In this document: positions 1 to 7,309 of the stretch, in pieces
Numbering within the stretch: position 1 is the stretch's first letter
How the letters are laid out: the number at the start of each line of letters is the position of its first letter
Source: Treponema sp.
Lineage (GTDB): Bacteria; Spirochaetota; Spirochaetia; Treponematales; Treponemataceae
Length of the DNA: 7,309 nucleotides
Assembly (NCBI GenBank): GCA_021442965.1
Contig: JABUUX010000414.1
Span: forward strand, 1-7,309
Direction: 5' to 3'
Program-made: the position numbers and the translations under genes
The notes under the pieces: generated by a model
Database searches by the model: none
Seen by the model: the letters and a program-made list of their open reading frames with translations, nothing else
Told to the model about the DNA's origin: nothing

Positions 1-197
1 GTTCCTTTTACGGCAGTTGCTTTCAGTCCGTATTTTTTTGCTGCAATTATCAGCCCGTTTATGTTCGTGCCTATTACATCTGTTCCAGCATAAATTCGGG
101 TTTCAGATATACTAATCTTTTTTCCGAAATTTGATGCCATCATAGCAAGGCAAGCTGCCCCACAGTCTGTGATATCCAGTTGCTGATAGTATTTCAT
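1..197 (-). CDS. C39-peptidase ABC exporter for double-glycine peptides, N-terminal part only (runs off window)
   Basis: Reading leftward from an ATG at 197, 65 codons are present before the window ends. The protein opens with MKYYQQLDITDCGAACLAMM, the start of a peptidase C39 domain: Gln6 fits the oxyanion glutamine and Cys12 in the Asp-Cys-Gly motif fits the catalytic cysteine; the His and Asp of the triad and the membrane and ATPase parts would lie outside. In the family this domain cuts leader peptides after Gly-Gly while the transporter moves the core across the inner membrane. It starts 11 bases after the glycosyltransferase stop, on the same strand, so it probably belongs to the same transcript and serves the peptide at 5705-5890. 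Codon use here looks less AT-rich than in the genes upstream. A stand-alone C39 peptidase or a transporter without ATPase cannot be excluded from this fragment. Confidence 0.88.
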   Translation of the reverse strand, partial: MKYYQQLDITDCGAACLAMMASNFGKKISISETRIYAGTDVIGTNINGLIIAAKKYGLKATAVKG

Positions 198-208
198 AAA
201 TATAATTT

Positions 209-2506
209 TTACTCATTAAACTTTCTATTTTGTATTTTCGCATAAAAATCTGAGATACTTGTTTCTAATCGCTTTTTGGTAAAATCGTCTATGGAATTTT
301 GCCTCAGATTATCTTCAGCCATCATATAAAATAATTGTTCTGTTTCTACTTTCCCAACCAGCAATTGATAATTCTCTGAAACTTTTGCAAATTCCATTTC
401 TTCTGAAATATGTACCATATTTGACGGTATTTCTATACAAAACGAATTAAACGGAGGTATTAATTTATAATGTTTTGGCACAATTGTAGTCTTACCCAAA
501 TATATAGACATAAATACTTGCGGAGTTGCACAGCAAGTCCTAGAAGCAAATATAATTTTCTTTGATTGAGAGATTATTTCTCCTATCTCTTCTATTTTCC
601 CACTTCTTTCTAGAACCTTTACATATTTTTCTAAGCCATTATTATTTATAAAATCTTTTAAAATCTTTAAATCTTCTTTATGTTTTTTTATGCATGTAAG
701 AAGTTTATTGTTTATAGAAGTCTTATTATGACGCGGATAGCAATTCTTAAACTGTTTTTCAGTTTCATACGTTTTTATAATCATAGTTTTTTCTTTTCCA
801 GATTTTATAATTTCCAGAAATGACCTTAATATTAAATCAATGCCATCTTCTTTAAAACCATTCTCCATAAAACAGCAATAATCATATTGTATCGCTTTGA
901 ATGCTACCTTCTTTGCAACCTCCACTATACTGGAATAAGATAATAAGTAATAACAACTTCTGTCAAAAAAATTACACTTTTCATATCCTCTTATCGATAT
1001 TTTCTTGTTTTTATAAATAACATCCTCATCCTCAATTACATATGTATCAGGAAAATTTTTAATTCCAGACATTGATTCAGTTTTTAATAAACTCAAGGAA
1101 TTTATTGTTTTAAATGGAACTTTTCCATAGGAAATATCAAATATATTATGAAGTATCTGATTCTCATCTTCACTTAAAGAAAAATCTTCATCATTATAAT
1201 ACTCTATTCTCCTAAGTTCATGTGTGTTAATCAAAACACCATCTTTTTTTAATTTACACACAAGCCATTTATAAACATAACGCCTTTCAGGTTGAGTAAT
1301 ATCAGGTAGCAATACATTAAAAGCAGTTTTATTTGATACTCCTTTTCTTGTTACCACTGAATATTTATCAAAATTTTTTATCTCTAAAATTAAATTTATA
1401 TCAAAAGCTATTTTTTTTATTTCTTCTTTTGCCAAATCATTCAGATTTTTAAACACAAGAGTATTTGTCACTCTGAACGCCTCTCCTAAAATTGCTCGTT
1501 TCATTCTAAATGAAAAAGAAAAATACATTTCTTCAACATAAATCCTTTTTAGTTTTTTATCTTCAAATGGTAGAGCCAATCCTAAAAAACAGTTCTTCTG
1601 ATTTTTCTCGGAATTCATAAATTGAATACAACCGATAACAATATCCTGTTTATTAGTGCTCAAGGTATTTTTCTTTCGTGAAATTTCAATAATCTCTTTG
1701 TAAAATTTTTCAAACTCCCAATAAAAGCAAATAGAAATTTCCATTTCTACAGAGTTATGTTTTTTCATCATAAGTTTTCTGTTTATACCCGATGCCATTT
1801 GCTCTGAACTGCTTTGTGAAAAATGTGGCTGGTGATAATCAAAACAATCTTTTATAAATATAAATTGACAACCAGATAATGCTAATTTATAACCTAAATC
1901 AATATCCTCATATCCCCAGTTCTTACCATATTCTTTATCAAAACCATTTACATTAAAATAGTTTTTACGGTCAATACCTAATGTATGTGAATAAGTAAAT
2001 CTCCATTCATTTGTTTCAATCCTTTCTTTAAGCCTTTCATCTTCATACCATGGGAATTTTTCTAATTCTTCAAAATTATATGAAAGAAAATCTTCACCAA
2101 GAAAATTAAAATTAAAAGTTGTTAATAACCTTCGTAAACCAAGAAGAACACAATTTTTATTCTTAGAAAATTCGTAATAGAATCTTTCCAAAAATGAATT
2201 TGGAGTCAGCATATCATTATCAAGAAATAATAAATATTCAAACTTTGCTAGCTTTGCACCACAATGTCTTAATAAAGATCTGTTTGTATTATTTCTGATT
2301 CTCTTATATCTGATTCTAACAGTCTTTCCCGCTAATAGAGCAACCATTTCATTTGTTGTATCTGTTCCAGAATCAACTATTATTATTTCAAAGTCAAAAT
2401 TACTTTTTATTTCTTGGTTTAACAAACACAATAAAGTTGGATATAAATAATTCTGTCGGTTAAAAGTCGGAATTATTACTGAAATCCCGTTTTCACTTTT
2501 TTTCAT
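209..2506 (-). CDS. two-part glycosyltransferase: GT2 (GT-A) domain followed by a possible GT4-like C-terminal domain
   Basis: 765 residues. Residues 7-250 are a family 2 glycosyltransferase: ISVIIPTFNR at 8-17, a metal/nucleotide-sugar motif Asp-Asn-Asp at 96-98 (FLDND), and the acceptor-side block GFDKEYG...NWGYEDIDLGYKL at 188-207, typical of GT2 enzymes with a galactosyltransferase-type C-terminal segment. Residues 280-480 match nothing I recognise. Residues 520-690 have the rhythm of a GT-B second half (GFKEDGIDLILRSFLEI, then SQSKKIIFASR and a G-K-T strand end), so a GT4-like second transferase is inferred, not proven. No signal peptide or membrane helix is visible, so it is probably cytoplasmic. 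It overlaps the upstream DUF1796 gene by 14 bases, with AAAGG before its ATG, implying translational coupling. Position between the peptide genes and the exporter suggests it sugars the peptide core before export; a surface-polysaccharide role is the alternative. Confidence 0.8.
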   Translation of the reverse strand: MKKSENGISVIIPTFNRQNYLYPTLLCLLNQEIKSNFDFEIIIVDSGTDTTNEMVALLAGKTVRIRYKRIRNNTNRSLLRHCGAKLAKFEYLLFLDNDMLTPNSFLERFYYEFSKNKNCVLLGLRRLLTTFNFNFLGEDFLSYNFEELEKFPWYEDERLKERIETNEWRFTYSHTLGIDRKNYFNVNGFDKEYGKNWGYEDIDLGYKLALSGCQFIFIKDCFDYHQPHFSQSSSEQMASGINRKLMMKKHNSVEMEISICFYWEFEKFYKEIIEISRKKNTLSTNKQDIVIGCIQFMNSEKNQKNCFLGLALPFEDKKLKRIYVEEMYFSFSFRMKRAILGEAFRVTNTLVFKNLNDLAKEEIKKIAFDINLILEIKNFDKYSVVTRKGVSNKTAFNVLLPDITQPERRYVYKWLVCKLKKDGVLINTHELRRIEYYNDEDFSLSEDENQILHNIFDISYGKVPFKTINSLSLLKTESMSGIKNFPDTYVIEDEDVIYKNKKISIRGYEKCNFFDRSCYYLLSYSSIVEVAKKVAFKAIQYDYCCFMENGFKEDGIDLILRSFLEIIKSGKEKTMIIKTYETEKQFKNCYPRHNKTSINNKLLTCIKKHKEDLKILKDFINNNGLEKYVKVLERSGKIEEIGEIISQSKKIIFASRTCCATPQVFMSIYLGKTTIVPKHYKLIPPFNSFCIEIPSNMVHISEEMEFAKVSENYQLLVGKVETEQLFYMMAEDNLRQNSIDDFTKKRLETSISDFYAKIQNRKFNE

Positions 2507-3125
2507 ACAATACCTTTATTTGATATTTTTTTTCTATTTCATTAGCTAATTCCTTTGCAAATTGCTTATTACCCCATTTATAGTTTTCTTCTCCATCGAG
2601 TTCTAAATAGTATTTGAAAACGTTTTCAAAGTTTTTGTTTTTTCCTCTGATTCCTAAGCAAATTAATTTGTCTGAACAACTTTTAGGTAAACTGTTTTTT
2701 ATTCTGTATAACTGTGATTCTGTTAGATTTTCATCGTTATAATTCAAACTATAAACAAACCATAAATCATCATCTTTCTCACTTCTTTTTACATATTTCT
2801 TAAAACTTTTAATTCTTCTTTTTAACTCTCTTTGAAATCTTCTGCTATCAAAATCTCCATGAACAATTTGAAATCCTTCATTAAATAGATATACATAAGA
2901 ACGGTATTTATAATCTTTAATTTCTTTTTCTGTTGAAGGTCTTTTTGAATGTGGATATTTAAATATTAATTTTTCAAATCTTTCGGTAAATAAAGATGAA
3001 GATTTCCATATTTGAAATTCTGCAAAATTATCTACAGGACTTTTTTCTCTAATTCCTAAAAAATGAGCCCAATCTGTTGCTATACAATTTGATCCAATAC
3101 TTATAATTTTTTTTATTTGTCTCAT
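2493..3125 (-). CDS. DUF1796-like protein (putative papain-like cysteine peptidase family)
   Basis: 210 residues, no signal peptide or membrane helix. The N-terminus reads IISIGSNC with Cys14, then H21 and a PVDNFAEF segment, which resembles the opening of DUF1796 proteins (hydrophobic-G-x-N-C, then a P-[FV]-D-[WN] block). A later stretch, DLWFVYSLNY around residue 120, fits the second core strand of that family. The family is annotated as putative papain-like cysteine peptidase from fold prediction; I know of no demonstrated reaction, and members are often found next to glycosyltransferase and polysaccharide genes. The gene starts 14 bases after the aspartic peptidase stop with a weak AGAAAG site, and overlaps the glycosyltransferase, so all three are probably co-translated. 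A part in modifying or trimming the exported peptide is inference from position. The residue following Asp (Asn instead of the usual Trp) is a deviation. Confidence 0.62.
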   Translation of the reverse strand: MRQIKKIISIGSNCIATDWAHFLGIREKSPVDNFAEFQIWKSSSLFTERFEKLIFKYPHSKRPSTEKEIKDYKYRSYVYLFNEGFQIVHGDFDSRRFQRELKRRIKSFKKYVKRSEKDDDLWFVYSLNYNDENLTESQLYRIKNSLPKSCSDKLICLGIRGKNKNFENVFKYYLELDGEENYKWGNKQFAKELANEIEKKYQIKVLYEKK

Positions 3126-3139
3126 AATTCTTTCTAAAA

Positions 3140-4426
3140 CTAAATTTCAGGACCACCTATAAAATCTTTTGTAAAAATTTCTTCAATAAATTCCTCTCCA
3201 TCTCTTGATAATAAAAAAATTTTATGTTTTTCTGTATTGCCTCTACCAGACTCTATATATTTTTCAACATCTAGACCGTTTATTTTTAATACTTCGTCTC
3301 CCAAATGTATGTTCTCATAAACATATTTTCCATTAACCCGAAATACTCCATCTATATATCGTTTCCCATTCTGGCTTGGAGAAATCACTATTCCATCAAA
3401 TTCTCTACCATTATTAATGAATTTCATAAACGATGTCTGTTGTATTTCAATATCATTAGGCTTCATTACATATATTCCTGTTTTTACATCAATGTATAAT
3501 TCAAAATTTCTTAGTAGATAATTTCCTAAAGTACTATTACTTGTTTTAAAAAAATAACCATTTCCATATGTAGTATGATAAAATGGAGCATTTTCAAATC
3601 TTCTTTCCCCAATACTTACTTCTGAAAATATAAAATAACTGTTTGTAATTTTTTCTCGTACATCTTCAACTATTGTTGTAATATTTTTTTTGTTTTTTCT
3701 ATATTGTTTATCATTTATTACTGAAAACTTTGCTCCAGTATCTAAATAAGCCCAATCTGTTTTTCCGTTGGGATATGTTACTTCTATTTCTATTCTGTCT
3801 GGCAATTTCTTTTTATTCAATTCTTTTCCTTGTTTTGGAAACCCTGTATTGTCATTAAAGAAAGTCAAAGCGTTATTCTTATAGGAAAACAAAAATGGTT
3901 TTTTTCTTAAAAACTCCATTCCCAATATCCCATCTATATTTCTTCCATCTGGGGTCTGTGTTAGATATTCTGCTCCATAAGTTTGAAATAGTACTTTATC
4001 CATTTCAAATCCATCAGAAACAATTTTATCAAAATAAACTCCTATACTTTTATAATGTGGAGGTTGAGGTGTTGATGCATAATAAAATCTTGCTTTTAAA
4101 AACCTATACGGTGTTTTATTACCGTAATCTAATTCTGTTAAAGCCCTCTGACATATTAAATTCCCTATAGAGCCCGTATCTATTAAAAAATTCGCTTTAT
4201 AACTTTTTTCTTTGTTTTGTAATTTAACTTCGATAATGTAATTCTGGTTTAAGCAGTTAATTAATTCCACTTTTCCAGAATTTAAAATTTTTAAATCTCC
4301 TGAAAAATCTCTTACATCTTCCCAGCCATTAACTTTATCAATTCCGTAATACATAATCTTATTTGATGTGCATGCTGAAAAAAAACAACATATTAATGAT
4401 ATTGCTATATATTCTACTTTTTTCAT
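3140..4426 (-). CDS. lipoprotein aspartic peptidase (clan AA, two DTG lobes) with C-terminal PDZ-like domain
   Basis: 428 residues from the chosen ATG at 4426. An upstream GTG at 4453 would add nine residues before the signal peptide and lies inside a hairpin, so it is unlikely. Residues 1-19 form a lipoprotein signal: MKK, a hydrophobic stretch, then FSAC with lipidated Cys19. Lobe one carries Asp83-Thr-Gly (FLIDTG) and the paired GILGMEFL at 166-173; lobe two carries Asp229-Thr-Gly (YLDTG) and a GNYLLRNFELYID block near 301-313. This two-lobed pattern is that of retropepsin/pepsin-like bacterial aspartyl proteases. Residues about 343-421 look like a PDZ domain (LGDEVLKINGLDVEKY). It should be membrane-anchored and act outside the cytoplasm. 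It directly follows the headless peptide core at 4470-4700. Substrate unknown; trimming of the exported peptide is inference. Confidence 0.82.
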   Translation of the reverse strand: MKKVEYIAISLICCFFSACTSNKIMYYGIDKVNGWEDVRDFSGDLKILNSGKVELINCLNQNYIIEVKLQNKEKSYKANFLIDTGSIGNLICQRALTELDYGNKTPYRFLKARFYYASTPQPPHYKSIGVYFDKIVSDGFEMDKVLFQTYGAEYLTQTPDGRNIDGILGMEFLRKKPFLFSYKNNALTFFNDNTGFPKQGKELNKKKLPDRIEIEVTYPNGKTDWAYLDTGAKFSVINDKQYRKNKKNITTIVEDVREKITNSYFIFSEVSIGERRFENAPFYHTTYGNGYFFKTSNSTLGNYLLRNFELYIDVKTGIYVMKPNDIEIQQTSFMKFINNGREFDGIVISPSQNGKRYIDGVFRVNGKYVYENIHLGDEVLKINGLDVEKYIESGRGNTEKHKIFLLSRDGEEFIEEIFTKDFIGGPEI

Positions 4427-4439
4427 ACTTTTATAAAAT

Positions 4440-4458
4440 GGGCAGTTTAACACTGCCC
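4440..4458 (-). promoter_or_regulatory. intercistronic hairpin between peptide core 2 and the PDZ-type peptidase
   Basis: A perfect 7-bp stem (GGGCAGT/ACTGCCC) closes a 5-base loop. On the minus strand it lies 11 bases after the stop of the headless core and 13 bases before the peptidase ATG, and is followed by ATTTTAT, a weak U-run. On the plus strand a better T-run (ATTTTTT) follows, so it would be a stronger terminator for plus-strand transcription, though no plus-strand gene precedes it. It may partly terminate transcription or protect the upstream message, leaving less peptidase than peptide. Confidence 0.55.
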
Positions 4459-4469
4459 GTATTTTTTAC

Positions 4470-4700
4470 TTAATTATACTCGTACGGATAATACTTTGCT
4501 TCTCCGGTCCATGTACCATCTTCTCGGCCCACTTCCCAATGATGATATCCCCCTTTCCCTGGAACATCCAAAGTCACTTCCCAATTCCGTGTATCTTTAA
4601 ATTCTCCTCCTAAACCATATCCACTTGGAGCATTAGTAGGAGTTCCACTTGGTGCAAATGGAGCTCCATAGCCACCATTACATAATATATAAATATTTAT
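4470..4700 (-). pseudogene. second double-glycine peptide core lacking a start codon and most of the leader
   Basis: An open frame of 76 codons with no ATG, GTG or TTG in a usable place follows an in-frame TGA at 4701-4703. It begins INIYILCNGG and continues YGAPFAPSGTP..., then 66 residues in all after the Gly-Gly, ending YYPYEYN. IYILCNGGYGAP aligns with LYVINGGYGAP of the intact peptide at 5705-5890, so the last leader residues survive while the first fifteen or so are gone. The frame overlaps the stop of the upstream peptidase (4697-4699) in another register, and no ribosome binding site is visible. The core itself has no stop or frameshift, is rich in Gly, Tyr and Trp (GKGGYHHWEVG), and is visibly less AT-rich than its neighbours. 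It is either a decapitated copy, a silent donor cassette, or a gene using a rare start; I favour a non-expressed copy. Confidence 0.7.
4649..4680. repeat. direct repeat at the leader/core junction, copy 2
   Basis: This 32-base stretch matches 5806-5837 at 31 of 32 positions (single A/G difference at 4657/5814). It codes for NGGYGAP[FS]AP in both peptide genes. Identity stops abruptly on both sides, while the rest of the two genes cannot be aligned beyond scattered prolines. Confidence 0.9.
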
Positions 4701-5647
4701 TCAAATCTAAACTTATCATTTTTAAAATCCAATTGAATCTTTCGATTTTTCCAAATCTCGTATCCCAATGAACTGCAATATTTATTGAAATATCTTGCTT
4801 TCAAATTTGTATCACCAATTTCAGAATCATAAGGAATTGAAAAAAAGTCTATTATAGTTTTTTCATTTATCTTAATTTCAGAAACAGAAAATTCTTTATC
4901 AAAATCTTTATCTTTATAAAACTCCACTTCATTATAATAATCCTCATAACTTGGAATTTTTTGTTCTGCGACACCCATCCCTTTTCGAGTAACAAAAAAA
5001 GGACAGCCTGTATCAATTAAACCAATCTCCGTATACTTGTTTACAGAAAATTCAACTCCACATACATTGTTATCTAAAAGCCAAATCAATTCTGTTTCAT
5101 TTTCAGAAAAAAAATTCTCATCAAAATAAAGTTTAGTGTTTTTGTAGTCAAAGGTAACTGAACTATAAAGTTGTAAAAATGGAAGACCCAAAATTCCATC
5201 AAATGGTAAATCTGAATATGTCAGAATAAATTTAGATTTCATCTCTTCTCCATTTTCATTTTCACCAACTATATAGTCCATCAAACTAAAATCTAATAAA
5301 AAGGTATCTATTTCTTTTTGAGAAATATCTGTCTTCCCTGTTTTTTTTTGTATTCCCTGTTTCAAATAATCTACATAAACATCATAGTGGATAAATTCAT
5401 CTATATATTTCTTAAAAAGATAATTTCTATTACAACCTGTATCTATCATAAGGGTAAAATCTTTTCCATTTATTTTTCTTTTTACAAAAGATACTCCTTT
5501 ATATTCAGGAGAAAAATCTAATATTAAATCTGCCTCTTTATAAAAAAGATTTGTAAGACCAGATGTGTCATTTTCTATTTTTACAGATGAACAGCTTAAA
5601 GGGAGAATGCAGAATACACAAAATAAAACTTTTTTTAATAAACTCAT
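4697..5647 (-). CDS. lipoprotein aspartic peptidase (clan AA, two DTG lobes), no PDZ domain
   Basis: 316 residues starting at the ATG at 5647, preceded by AGAGG four bases upstream. The N-terminus has MSLLKK, a hydrophobic run and LPLSC, giving a lipidated Cys19 with a relaxed lipobox. Lobe one has Asp69-Thr-Gly (LMIDTG) and FDGILGLPFL at 149-158; lobe two has Asp212-Thr-Gly (GLIDTG) and LGYEIWKNRKIQLDF at 294-308. Both catalytic aspartates are therefore present, as expected for a monomeric two-lobed enzyme. It resembles the peptidase at 3140-4426 in plan but not closely in sequence and lacks the PDZ-like tail. It sits 57 bases after the intact peptide gene, behind a 13-bp hairpin, and its last codons run into the headless core. 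Expected location is the periplasmic or outer surface; the substrate is unknown, with the exported peptide the obvious candidate. Confidence 0.82.
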   Translation of the reverse strand: MSLLKKVLFCVFCILPLSCSSVKIENDTSGLTNLFYKEADLILDFSPEYKGVSFVKRKINGKDFTLMIDTGCNRNYLFKKYIDEFIHYDVYVDYLKQGIQKKTGKTDISQKEIDTFLLDFSLMDYIVGENENGEEMKSKFILTYSDLPFDGILGLPFLQLYSSVTFDYKNTKLYFDENFFSENETELIWLLDNNVCGVEFSVNKYTEIGLIDTGCPFFVTRKGMGVAEQKIPSYEDYYNEVEFYKDKDFDKEFSVSEIKINEKTIIDFFSIPYDSEIGDTNLKARYFNKYCSSLGYEIWKNRKIQLDFKNDKFRFE

Positions 5648-5655
5648 AATACCTC

Positions 5656-5688
5656 TAAATCGACCATAATAAAACTATGGTCGATTTA
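5656..5688 (-). promoter_or_regulatory. intercistronic hairpin between the intact peptide gene and its peptidase
   Basis: A perfect 13-bp inverted repeat (TAAATCGACCATA/TATGGTCGATTTA) closes a 7-base loop, 16 bases after the peptide stop. Its end is immediately followed on the minus strand by the GAGG ribosome binding site of the peptidase, with no U-run, so it is not a classical terminator. It may block 3' decay of the short peptide message or hold down peptidase translation. The same arrangement (peptide, hairpin, peptidase) recurs at 4440-4458. Confidence 0.7.
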
Positions 5689-5704
5689 ATAAAATTAATT
5701 AATT

Positions 5705-5890
5705 TTAAAATCTCCACTTCCAACCAAATGAAATTGTACCTTTTTCGGCATCAGCTTCAATAAATGGTCCTGACTTTGCAGTTGGATTTGATTGAGAAGG
5801 TGAAGTTGGTGCAGATGGAGCTCCATAGCCACCATTAATAACGTAAAGCTCATCTGCACTCATTACAGCAAATCCATATGTTTCTAACAT
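5705..5890 (-). CDS. double-glycine-leader peptide precursor (secreted peptide, bacteriocin-like class)
   Basis: 61 residues. The start is the ATG at 5890, fixed by GGAGGT seven bases upstream; an open frame reaches to 6001 but has no such site. Residues 1-21 are a leader, MLETYGFAVMSADELYVINGG, read here as MLETYGFAVM then SADELYVINGG; the E-L-x-x-I-x-G-G end matches the consensus for leaders cut by C39 exporters. The 40-residue core begins YGAPSAPTSPSQSNP, rich in Ser, Thr and Pro, then an acidic patch (FIEADAEKG), and ends with aromatic, cationic ISFGWKWRF. It contains no cysteine, so no lanthionine, disulfide or S-linked sugar is possible; O-linked modification is conceivable and a glycosyltransferase lies in the same row. 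It is the first gene after the promoter at 6035-6060. Activity (toxin, signal or surface peptide) cannot be told from sequence. Confidence 0.85.
   Translation of the reverse strand: MLETYGFAVMSADELYVINGGYGAPSAPTSPSQSNPTAKSGPFIEADAEKGTISFGWKWRF
5806..5837. repeat. direct repeat at the leader/core junction, copy 1
   Basis: Partner of 4649-4680 (31 of 32 identical). It spans the codons for the final leader residues Asn-Gly-Gly and the first core residues Tyr-Gly-Ala-Pro-Ser-Ala-Pro. Confidence 0.9.
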
Positions 5891-5897
5891 TGAATTT

Positions 5898-5903
5898 ACC
5901 TCC
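5898..5903 (-). promoter_or_regulatory. ribosome binding site GGAGGT of the peptide gene
   Basis: GGAGGT seven bases before the ATG at 5890 is the strongest site in the whole gene row, which fits high production of the peptide and rules out the upstream ATGs at 5905 and 5920. Confidence 0.85.
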
Positions 5904-5935
5904 ATTTCTCTGATTTTCATCAGTTTAACTTTTTT

Positions 5936-5956
5936 AAAAAGGATGTCAGCCTTTTT
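5936..5956 (-). promoter_or_regulatory. small hairpin with U-run in the peptide mRNA leader
   Basis: AAAAAGG and CCTTTTT pair over a 7-base loop. The stem has only two G-C pairs but ends in five T on either strand, as in a weak intrinsic terminator. It lies about 45 bases before the peptide start, downstream of the larger dyad at 5962-5997, so together they could form an attenuator. No regulator is known. Confidence 0.4.
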
Positions 5957-5961
5957 AATTA

Positions 5962-5997
5962 TTTTAAGTATATAGTCTGACTCCCATATACTTAAAA
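5962..5997. promoter_or_regulatory. 12-bp inverted repeat in the peptide leader region (operator or RNA hairpin)
   Basis: TTTTAAGTATAT and ATATACTTAAAA are perfect reverse complements separated by 12 bases. The dyad lies 38-73 bases downstream of the -10 box at 6035-6040, so within the predicted transcript. It could be bound as DNA by a dimeric repressor or fold in RNA; the all-AT stem (one G-C pair) makes a stable RNA hairpin less likely than a protein site. Confidence 0.5.
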
Positions 5998-6034
5998 ACA
6001 ATCAACGACTGTTTGGTGCACTATCCTTAAGTCT

Positions 6035-6060
6035 ATTTTATTTTTTTTTTTTTTTGTCAA
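6035..6060 (-). promoter_or_regulatory. promoter of the peptide operon with poly(A) spacer
   Basis: On the minus strand TTGACA (6060-6055) is followed by 14 A (6054-6041) and TAAAAT (6040-6035). Both boxes are good sigma-70 matches, and the same TAAAAT is used at 6460-6465 with a 17-base spacer. Here the spacer is only 14, too short for good activity unless the A run gains about three bases. AT-rich sequence upstream of -35 could act as an UP element. Transcription would start near 6028, giving an untranslated leader of about 138 bases. Confidence 0.6.
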
Positions 6061-6121
6061 TCTTTTTATTTCTTATTCTTATTTAACTCTCAAGAAATGG
6101 TGTAACTCAGACCTTGTTCTT

Positions 6122-6129
6122 CCCCCCCC
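6122..6129. repeat. homopolymer of eight C (eight G on the minus strand)
   Basis: Eight consecutive C in an otherwise very AT-rich stretch between the small membrane protein and the operon promoter, about 60 bases upstream of the -35 box. Runs of this length are slippage-prone. Confidence 0.85.
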
Positions 6130-6147
6130 TAAAACCCCATTTTGTAT

Positions 6148-6432
6148 TTACATTCTAATTACATTATTAACTAATAACATTAATCTCGTTGTCCACAAAA
6201 TTGTAGGAAGTGCAACAAAAACTGCAAAAATTATTATTGCAGCTGTCAGACACTTTTTTCTGCTTTTTACCTGCTTTTGATCAGTTTTGTCTGCATTTAC
6301 CATTCTTACAATAGAAATAATAAAAAAAAATACAATTGAACCTATAACCAGTGCAATTAAACTCGGAATAATTAATAAACGTAAAAACGGAAAAAACGAT
6401 GTCATTAAACCTGGGGCTGCTGCTGCTTCCAT
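6148..6432 (-). CDS. small membrane protein with two hydrophobic helices, function unknown
   Basis: 94 residues from the ATG at 6432, which has AGGAGG at 6442-6447 nine bases upstream; a TTG at 6456 opens the same frame but lacks a site. The protein has a short N-terminus (MEAAAAPGLM), a long hydrophobic stretch at about 12-42, a basic linker at 43-60 (ADKTDQKQVKSRKK) and a second helix at about 62-88. I do not recognise the family. Helix-basic loop-helix is seen in small holin-like, pilin-like (VirB2/TrbC-shaped) and bacteriocin immunity proteins, and none can be singled out. It is transcribed from its own promoter (6460-6488) and lies 257 bases upstream of the peptide gene on the same strand; no clear terminator separates them, so read-through into the peptide operon is possible. 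A self-protection role is an inference from position alone. Confidence 0.6.
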   Translation of the reverse strand: MEAAAAPGLMTSFFPFLRLLIIPSLIALVIGSIVFFFIISIVRMVNADKTDQKQVKSRKKCLTAAIIIFAVFVALPTILWTTRLMLLVNNVIRM

Positions 6433-6441
6433 AAAACTTAA

Positions 6442-6447
6442 TCCTCC
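6442..6447 (-). promoter_or_regulatory. ribosome binding site AGGAGG-type of the small membrane protein
   Basis: GGAGGA lies nine bases before the ATG at 6432 and decides that start over the upstream TTG. Confidence 0.75.
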
Positions 6448-6459
6448 TATTATCAATTC

Positions 6460-6488
6460 ATTTTACAAATTTTCTCACTTTTTGACAA
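6460..6488 (-). promoter_or_regulatory. sigma-70-type promoter of the small membrane protein
   Basis: Minus strand TTGTCA (6488-6483), exactly 17 bases, then TAAAAT (6465-6460). Transcription would begin near 6453, a few bases before the ribosome binding site at 6442-6447. A plus-strand TTGACA at 6482-6487 overlaps the -35 box but has no convincing -10 partner for the GH31 gene. Confidence 0.65.
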
Positions 6489-6545
6489 AAAAATTTCCAC
6501 TACAAAAATAAAAAATCTCATACTAAAATAGGAATAATACAGTGC

Positions 6546-6734
6546 GTTAGGGCTTGTAGGGGCGCCGAAGGCGTTCTGCAAGGTGGTTCGCACATTGATT
6601 GAGCATGTCGAAATCATCGTATGTAAAAGTGGTTTCGATAAACTCAACCACCGATTGATAAACCCACCTTGCAGAATGGAGCGCGAAGACGCGTAACCCC
6701 GAAAAACCCGACGGCGCCTGCGCCGGAACGCCCA
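6546..6734. repeat. GC-rich imperfect palindromic element (MITE- or REP-like) between divergent genes
   Basis: About 190 bases of much higher GC than the DNA to its left. Nested arms: TTCTGCAAGGTGG at 6574-6586 pairs perfectly with 6664-6676; inside, TGAG...TCGAAA pairs with TTTCGA...CTCA; at the right end CGGCGC/GCGCCG (6712-6725) makes a tight hairpin, and GGCGCC occurs near both ends. Open frames across it on the minus strand (rich in Arg or low complexity) have no ribosome binding site and are not genes. It fills most of the 326-base gap between 6433 and 6758; the remainder holds the promoter at 6460-6488. Whether it is multicopy in the genome cannot be seen here. Confidence 0.65.
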
Positions 6735-6758
6735 AAAAAATTTATTCATGAGGTACTT

Positions 6759-7309
6759 ATGTTCGTACAGGAAGAAAATGCCCTTATTCTAAAAAAGGGA
6801 AACGAAACAGTCAGAATTGAACCGTGGGGAAAAGATGCTCTCCGCGTACGCTCAACTCTGGAACCACATTTTACCGGAAACGTTTGGGGGCTTACAGAAG
6901 AAGTAAAACCCTGCAAGGCAAAAATCAAAATTACCCGAGAAGGGGCCGAAATTACAAACGGAAAAATGACTGCCCGCTTTAACGGAAACGGTGTTCTTTC
7001 TTTTTGGAAAGGGAACACACGCATTCTTCATGAATATTTCCGCGCTTACGACCCGAATGCTACAAAAGAGACCTGCTGTACAAAAATTATTGCCCGTGAA
7101 TGGAAAGGACTTCGCGGTGGTTATGACTATAAACTGACTGTCCGATTTGAACCAAACGACGGCGAAAAACTTTACGGTATGGGTCAGTATCAGATGCCTT
7201 ACCTGGATGTTAAAGGCTGCCAGCTGGAACTGGCTCAGAGAAACGGTCAGGTTTCTGTTCCTTTTGCTGTTTCTTCTTTAGGTTACGGATTTATGTGGAA
7301 CAACCCTGG
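6759..7309 (+). CDS. glycoside hydrolase family 31, probably alpha-xylosidase or alpha-glucosidase (N-terminal part, runs off window)
   Basis: 183 codons plus two bases are present. The start ATG at 6759 has GAGG about five bases upstream; an ATG at 6748 is out of frame. The visible part is the N-terminal beta-sandwich of GH31 enzymes: FVQEENALILKKGNETVRIE, then GYDYKLTVRFEPNDGEKLYG near 121-140, GMGQ at 140-143, and the long conserved block from LDVKGCQLELAQRNGQ through SVPFAVSSLGYGFMWNNP at 149-183. The catalytic barrel with the Asp nucleophile would lie beyond the window. No signal peptide is seen, so it is probably cytoplasmic and acts on imported oligosaccharides such as isoprimeverose-type xyloglucan fragments; the substrate is inferred from similarity to alpha-xylosidases. 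It is oriented away from the peptide operon, has higher GC, and is probably unrelated to it. Confidence 0.87.
   Translation, partial: MFVQEENALILKKGNETVRIEPWGKDALRVRSTLEPHFTGNVWGLTEEVKPCKAKIKITREGAEITNGKMTARFNGNGVLSFWKGNTRILHEYFRAYDPNATKETCCTKIIAREWKGLRGGYDYKLTVRFEPNDGEKLYGMGQYQMPYLDVKGCQLELAQRNGQVSVPFAVSSLGYGFMWNNP

Follow-up and report, generated by a model that had tools for sequence, protein, structure and literature searches.

Contig JABUUX010000414.1 of Treponema sp. (GenBank assembly GCA_021442965.1) carries on its minus strand a secreted-peptide locus, in which a precursor with a double-glycine leader is accompanied by genes for two pepsin-like aspartic peptidases, a DUF1796 protein, a two-part glycosyltransferase and the start of a C39 exporter. 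We analysed the whole stretch of 7309 bases (the window) and compared it with related stretches and genomes, numbered L and G below. The locus is real and recurrent: a box of 32 nucleotides (nt) shared by two of its units at 31 of 32 positions (BLAST E 1e-12) and a similar gene set in other genomes indicate that it is more than a chance arrangement. On balance, we favour the reading that it is a microcin-like (class II, double-glycine) locus built of precursor-partner cassettes, whose pepsin-like partner would give cognate, probably proteolytic, immunity.

The locus genes lie in one row in the order precursor, peptidase A, headless second core, peptidase B, DUF1796 gene, glycosyltransferase and C39 start. 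Gaps are 57 nt between the precursor and peptidase A, 14 nt between peptidase B and the DUF1796 gene and 11 nt between the glycosyltransferase and the C39 start; the DUF1796 and glycosyltransferase genes overlap by 14 nt. The sole large gap, 270 nt between peptidases A and B, holds the headless core. All the elements that an earlier reading of the bare sequence (the original prediction) had placed in this row were present where it put them, with the gaps it gave. The features are as follows.

5705..5890, minus strand: double-glycine precursor of 61 amino acids (aa), an open reading frame with a GGAGG ribosome-binding site; leader 5890-5828, core 5827-5708
5656..5688, minus strand: strong RNA hairpin, precursor stop to peptidase A start (fold z -6.2; 0 of 200 shuffles equally stable)
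4697..5647, minus strand: peptidase A, 316 aa, bilobal pepsin-like, exported, probable lipoprotein
4470..4679, minus strand: headless second core, NGG plus 66 aa by translation, with no leader and no in-frame upstream start codon
5806..5837, minus strand: 32-nt box, copy 1, leader/core junction (31/32 identical to 4649-4680)
4649..4680, minus strand: 32-nt box, copy 2, headless unit (matches copy 1)
4440..4458, minus strand: RNA hairpin, headless core stop to peptidase B start (fold z -3.9; 0 of 200 shuffles equally stable)
3140..4426, minus strand: peptidase B, 428 aa, two DTG motifs, PDZ-like tail (PF13650, 32.4 bits)
2493..3125, minus strand: DUF1796 protein, 210 aa, putative papain-like (PF08795, 24.6 bits against a cut-off of 23)
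209..2506, minus strand: two-part glycosyltransferase, 765 aa, GT-A (DND, WGYED) then GT-B
3..197, minus strand: start of a C39 peptidase/ABC exporter, first 65 codons, cut by the window end (PF03412, 54.8 bits)

The leader MLETYGFAVMSADELYVINGG at 5890-5828 is preceded by GGAGG and followed by a core of 40 aa, which confirmed the predicted ELxxIxGG double-glycine leader within the 61-aa reading frame. It ends in Gly-Gly and has the conserved hydrophobic and acidic positions of class II microcin/bacteriocin-type leaders. The precursor matched no curated Pfam or NCBIfam precursor family at E≤1, and protein-collection searches with the precursor and with peptidase B recovered only the window's own proteins, which left the glycosyltransferase and relatives as sources of evidence. 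Related loci were found in Treponema and in other genomes of the same order. An 8-leader profile matched 15 of 390 genomes of the order at E≤0.01 and nine at E≤1e-6; a 17-leader profile, run on the 274 genomes in the family to which the Treponema record G002 belongs, matched 13 at E≤0.001, with 11 of them reaching E≤1e-8. The window leader is one row in each of the leader profiles A2 and A5.

Leaders are conserved and cores are hypervariable. Across 27 unit pairs in two sets (G067, G152, G051), leader DNA was 84-98% identical and cores 24-74% by global alignment, with conservation breaking at the Gly-Gly codons. In G152, L095 and L096 hold several precursor units with near-identical leaders, a tandem family expansion, and three glycosyltransferase gene pieces at contig ends. 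Several cores among those of the window (5827-5708), L001, L095, L096, L132 and L220 end strand-like with a terminal aromatic residue or Leu (GTISFGWKWRF, VSLGITAKISF and GITVGWIFHF are examples), resembling the end signal of outer-membrane barrels. The L148 precursor (6818-7195) matches OMP_b-brl at 7e-5, below the family cut-off.

We examined 30 leader-bearing precursors (26, to which two from L150 and one each from L151 and L215 were later added) and assigned the gene behind each to a partner class by hand; L127a has no downstream sequence and was left out of the count (n=29). A DTG peptidase stood directly next in 17 cases (window, L001, L093, L094 twice, L095c, L096 twice, L097, L098, L127b, L129, L130, L147b, L148a, L150a and L215; the L093 gene is truncated at the contig end). 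A small membrane protein took this place in four (L002, L095a, L095b and L128; broken in L095a) and a CAAX/Abi-type protease (CPBP) in one (L147a; PF02517, 29.9 bits, cut-off 22.4). None of these partners followed the precursor in 7/29 (L126, L131, L132, L148b, L149, L150b and L151 7918-8097): in L131 a small outer-membrane-like protein lies between precursor and peptidase, in L126 and L132 only such a protein occupies the partner position, and in L149 the peptidase is upstream. Most precursors have a partner gene. The peptidases pair with individual precursors, probably as their immunity proteins, a relation that the original prediction had missed.

In this small sample, the partner is chosen by core class. 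We called a core membrane-type if it had a 19-residue window with a hydropathy ≥1.6, as did five cores with downstream sequence. A small membrane partner followed 4/5 of these and 0/24 others (Fisher 2e-4), and a peptidase followed 0/5 against 17/24 (Fisher 0.007), statistics that are only a guide because three of the four cases are paralogous and the threshold was set with the values already known. Both window gaps between core and peptidase are among the 12 of 15 folded gaps with a z of -2.26 or lower (four gaps were cut at 150 nt, and L093 was left out). A pepsin-like peptidase in L220 is preceded by several successive precursors (3338-5103) whose double-glycine leaders are of other types; one Gly-rich membrane-type core there is followed by a 64-aa membrane protein, which suggests that the partner rule extends beyond the leader family.

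Peptidases A and B, predicted to be proteolytically active, appear from their sequences to be pepsin-like bilobal aspartic peptidases. Each carries two DTG motifs. Peptidase B passes the PF13650 cut-off of 24.3 bits (32.4) and peptidase A falls below it (18.0), so that the assignment of peptidase A rests on motif, profile and fold; the PDZ_4 match of peptidase B is weak (14.6 bits, below cut-off). The fold of peptidase A spans residues 31-316 in two lobes, and the nearest solved structure is 9iy9 (Bacteroides fragilis), followed by pepsins. The catalytic Asp pair is present in 19/19 aligned proteins, both window peptidases included, most pairs of which are 11-36% identical; peptidases A and B share 22%. 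The original prediction had named both as aspartic peptidase lipoproteins. Its two DTG motifs stand, and the lipoprotein part is only likely, as the lipoboxes (PLSC and FSAC, judged by eye) are non-canonical.

Matches to the peptidase family occur in 52/274 genomes. Among 40 further peptidase regions, C39 was found in L196, L224 (a fragment) and L229 (described from a separate reading). A double-glycine precursor lies ahead of the peptidase in L215 (leader profile) and, with other leaders, in L218, L220 and L229, directly so in L218 and L220. A single clade of peptide-locus peptidases was rejected: in a tree of 67 peptidases with many long branches, 15 label changes were counted against 22 after shuffling, and with 0 or 1 of 500 shuffles as low the labels are clustered but mixed. 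Such intermingling fits orphan immunity genes and also a family with several jobs.

The strongest evidence for immunity over maturation is a natural deletion. In G025 (L130), HlyD, C39-ABC, a GNAT-like gene, the peptidase and the precursor lie between flanks that are 90 and 94% identical to those in G447 (L200). G447 is without the exporter side (HlyD, C39 and the GNAT-like gene; L130 2958-6864) and has also lost the leader, the bulk of the core and the gene beyond (L130 8260-9629). It keeps the leaderless core tail, the hairpin and an intact peptidase, in a block of 98.6% DNA identity with a ratio of nonsynonymous to synonymous changes (dN/dS) of 0.24. Since exporter, leader and most of the core are lost and the peptidase is kept, maturation seems useless in G447. 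Seven other peptidase pairs gave dN/dS of 0.10-0.22 (three with dS >1, one over 93 codons only), and the pair L001/L196 gave 0.47, a value based on a handful of changes. In L219, a peptidase, a GNAT-like remnant, a CPBP gene and a protein that looks outer-membrane-like by eye stand together with no C39 or leader match. No relative of the L130 peptidase was found on viral contigs.

The C39 domain start predicted at the window end was recovered at 197-3 (PF03412, cut-off 22), and it shares 48 of its 65 residues with the C39-ABC exporter of L001 and 49 with that of L002. A lack of transmembrane and ATPase domains beyond base 1, which the original prediction had named as evidence against itself, was not seen, judging from relatives: the L001 exporter carries both, and C39 occurs in further relatives. 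HlyD is encoded in 13/62 stretches (L002, L005, L094, L097, L128, L130, L132, L147, L148, L150, L151, L196 and L229) and not within the window.

The two-part build of the glycosyltransferase, GT-A plus GT-B, was also borne out (PF00535, 75.5 bits, GT-A fold). For the GT-A half the closest match is chondroitin polymerase; for the GT-B half, the closest are PimA, BshA and HepE. It belongs to a dedicated family with 11 matches in 7/390 genomes. Eight of these have a precursor of the leader family within ~2 kb; the other three are in G004 (L005) and, as second copies, in G003 (L003) and G005 (L006). In L005 (6877-11433), the usual precursor and peptidase give way to two genes that look SPASM/radical-SAM-like by eye and to a Gly/Cys-rich precursor. 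We found seven other full-length homologues among 7993 candidates scored, and the six near-full-length matches from named genomes were all from Treponema among the matches listed. Viral contigs held no full-length glycosyltransferase, and no plasmid record covered 80% of it. WGxED, invariant in eight sequences, was discarded as a fixed motif, as among 14 only E200 and D201 remained so and L003 and L006 no longer have the W. The leader at E≤1e-6 occurred in 6/7 genomes with the glycosyltransferase and in 3/383 without (Fisher 1e-10), an association that is partly circular because the first leader profile was built from such loci. Leader stretches without the enzyme are L126, L127, L130, L131, L132, L147, L148 and L149, and its absence was checked across the whole genome for G051, G363, G025, G387 and G377.

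That the two-part glycosyltransferase might glycosylate the core is plausible. A mucin-like substrate was dropped, as Ser/Thr/Gly/Asn/Pro content is not higher in cores with the enzyme (mean 0.46 in 15 cores against 0.52 in 11 without). The DUF1796 assignment held (PF08795, just above its cut-off), and a homologue occurs in 1/61 other stretches scanned (L002). A family of ~175 aa starting with MSYSIEPA recurs in peptide loci, with six full-length copies in 62 stretches (L147 7862-8398, L148, L130, L131, L150 and L151). It has a weak GNAT resemblance (E 0.02, far below cut-off) and is possibly a candidate core-modifying acyltransferase.

The second unit of the window follows the G447 pattern, its product lost with its leader and its partner kept. 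The headless core begins with NGG at 4679, runs for 66 core codons and stops at 4470; peptidase A ends 16 nt ahead of box copy 2, the leader and ribosome site are gone, and the peptidase B gene is intact. The unit is not a recent whole-unit duplication, because the box is shared at 31/32 nt and the peptidases are only 22% identical. Exchange or copying at the leader/core junction is likely, as for the G067 and G152 leaders. The box also holds a perfect 12-nt palindrome, ATGGAGCTCCAT, at 5815-5826 and 4658-4669; by a rough estimate about two such palindromes are expected by chance at this stretch length. A programmed frameshift from peptidase A into the headless core was rejected, as the core frame has stops just before the end of peptidase A and no slippery site was seen.

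In the mechanism we propose, the C39 exporter would recognise the leader, cut after Gly-Gly and, with the HlyD adaptor and an outer-membrane channel, send the core out of the cell. In this lineage the two-part glycosyltransferase, perhaps with DUF1796, would modify the core first. The partner of hydrophilic, strand-like cores would usually be a pepsin-like aspartic peptidase on the periplasmic side, shielding the producer from its own peptide by cleaving or binding it. The second window cassette would have lost its leader and hence its product, with partner peptidase B left intact. The pepsin-like partner is likely an immunity enzyme. It is possible, if short of probable, that these peptidases form a new class of self-immunity: dedicated, periplasmic, one per peptide, picked by the physical class of the core (transmembrane partners for helical cores, pepsin-like ones for strand-like cores) and persisting as orphan resistance genes once the toxin is gone, the toxin being glycosylated beforehand by the GT-A/GT-B fusion in part of the family.

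Several observations weigh against the favoured reading. The peptidase family may have other jobs, given its presence in 52/274 genomes, mostly away from C39; 34 of the 40 further regions have neither C39 nor a double-glycine precursor. The window peptidases are remote from the rest (best identity 28% and 23%). L150b has a membrane-type core without a small transmembrane partner, and 3/15 folded gaps have no hairpin. The peptidases of L128 and L096 are 81% identical and their cores are unrelated, with a transmembrane protein intervening in L128. G447 is a draft assembly in which two more C39 exporters occur at other places, each next to a protein carrying another type of Gly-Gly leader, and its peptidase may have a second job. 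The composition of the cores given above does not support the proposed role of the glycosyltransferase. Among known proteins, SilX, a protease beside a bacteriocin, is not an immunity protein according to the available text of PMC9298176.

An alternative is that the pepsin-like proteins are maturation proteases that trim or activate the core after export. Their genes are part of the production locus and their catalytic Asp pair is intact, and bacteriocin-associated CAAX proteases can take part in processing (PMC9298176, in the text available). We nevertheless consider this unlikely: the peptidase stayed intact in G447, where the exporter and leader are gone and only a tail of the core is left, there is often one peptidase per precursor rather than per locus, and a transmembrane protein or CPBP fills the same slot for some other cores. 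A role of the peptides as secreted signals or surface glycopeptides, cleared or regulated by the peptidase, keeps slightly more weight and would still surprise us. Secreted double-glycine proteins of T. denticola (tepA1) showed no killing of seven oral strains (PMC11879956, as far as accessible), a result that also speaks against toxicity here; several cores are very rich in Ser, Thr and Gly and strand-like, and one precursor matches OMP_b-brl below cut-off. Against this, hypervariable cores and changing partner classes look like arms-race toxins, and the L002 precursor, from the same kind of locus, reaches 21.4 bits against a cut-off of 21.5 for the class IIb bacteriocin family TIGR03949.

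Two further alternatives concern parts of the locus. The glycosyltransferase and DUF1796 could serve in making surface polysaccharide and be neighbours of the peptide genes only by coincidence, as the nearest relatives of both glycosyltransferase halves, the composition of the cores and the three copies without a nearby leader-family precursor might suggest. The scarcity of full-length homologues, the confinement of the listed near-full-length matches from named genomes to Treponema and the eight matches close to a leader-bearing precursor make this a very improbable account. Only a little less improbable is that the headless core and peptidase B form a silent cassette, in which recombination at the box would join core 2 to leader 1, so that product and partner change at once. 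The box is indeed a direct repeat in the same orientation at the leader/core junction, the distant peptidases exclude a recent whole-unit duplication, and near-identical leaders stand on unrelated cores in G067 and G152. Set against these, no other headless-core array was noticed in relatives (no dedicated search beyond the box comparison was made), the headless core tail of G447 is plainly a deletion remnant, and no recombinase gene was seen by eye in the window.

The second outcome named by the original prediction as refuting it, genes that are not kept together, was not seen either: precursor, glycosyltransferase, peptidase and C39 recur jointly. They do not form a fixed set, since the leader stretches listed above lack the glycosyltransferase, DUF1796 is in one of 61 other stretches and the peptidase family is mostly away from C39. 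On the other side of the locus, a divergent gene resembles a family 31 glycoside hydrolase (named by eye). Among the 274 genomes this flank is nearest to G225, G304, G325, G232 and G286 (81-84%) and G203 (79%), which suggests a Treponema-type spirochaete. None of the six shows the leader or, it appears, the glycosyltransferase, and window positions 1-6460 have no match in the 8-16 kb around their glycoside hydrolase gene; the locus is thus absent from that place in the nearest compared relatives. G304 has a family peptidase ~10 kb away without C39 or leader (L204). Between the locus and the hydrolase gene, positions 6148-6456 hold a 102-aa reading frame with membrane segments and a weak likeness to conjugative-element pilins (PF18895, E 0.003, below cut-off). 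Positions 6463-6740 are a G+C-rich spacer, perhaps a repeat element; five of six related genomes have ~90 of its bases conserved (74-75%) in the corresponding position.

How producers protect themselves is one of the hardest features of a bacteriocin locus to predict. If these single-chain peptidases are cognate immunity proteins, they would represent a new kind of self-protection, many aspartic peptidases of this bacterial family that are now unassigned (a match in 52/274 genomes) would become interpretable and peptide competition among spirochaetes would become testable. The locus would also provide a peptide-modifying glycosyltransferase of new build. Judged by titles and the beginnings of abstracts, with subscription journals little covered, the literature held no aspartic peptidase in bacteriocin immunity; on the same basis, only T. 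denticola papers fitted such Treponema loci.

With class II microcins and class IIb bacteriocins the locus shares the double-glycine leader, C39-ABC, HlyD (in relatives) and a partner after most precursors; it differs in the pepsin-like peptidase in the partner slot and in the dedicated GT-A/GT-B fusion. Glycocins such as sublancin likewise combine a double-glycine precursor, a family 2 glycosyltransferase and a C39 exporter. Unlike them, the window core has no cysteine, as the original prediction had held in setting the locus apart from sublancin-type glycocins, the enzyme has two domains and no thiol oxidoreductase is among the visible window genes. With 9iy9 and pepsins the peptidases share the fold and two DTG motifs at ~14% identity, and the window family is linked to peptide loci.

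The original statement that no known locus matched was too strong. In T. denticola, tepA1, the closest case studied so far, has tandem pairs of a lipoprotein and a double-glycine precursor ahead of C39-ABC and HlyD, and tepA1-tepB1 resembles our loci in this exporter and adaptor, in the pairs and in a secreted product with a barrel-like stretch (accessible parts of PMC11879956 and PMC4947327). Deletion of one pair was not obtained (PMC11879956, as available). The tepA1 lipoprotein precedes its precursor, precursors reach 614 aa and the portions of the two accounts at hand mention no glycosyltransferase. Its lipoproteins are unrelated to the window peptidases: we rejected them as homologues, as the best peptidase-profile E within their stretch, L239, was 0.0023 and no reading frame displayed there had two DTG motifs. 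A further parallel is the CAAX/Abi proteases, which are reported to confer bacteriocin immunity in some cases and were excluded from it in another (PMC9298176, in the accessible text, citing Kjos 2010). In both systems a protease is the partner of a bacteriocin-like peptide, and L147 has a CAAX/Abi gene in the very same slot; those enzymes are membrane metalloproteases, whereas the partner here is an aspartic peptidase.

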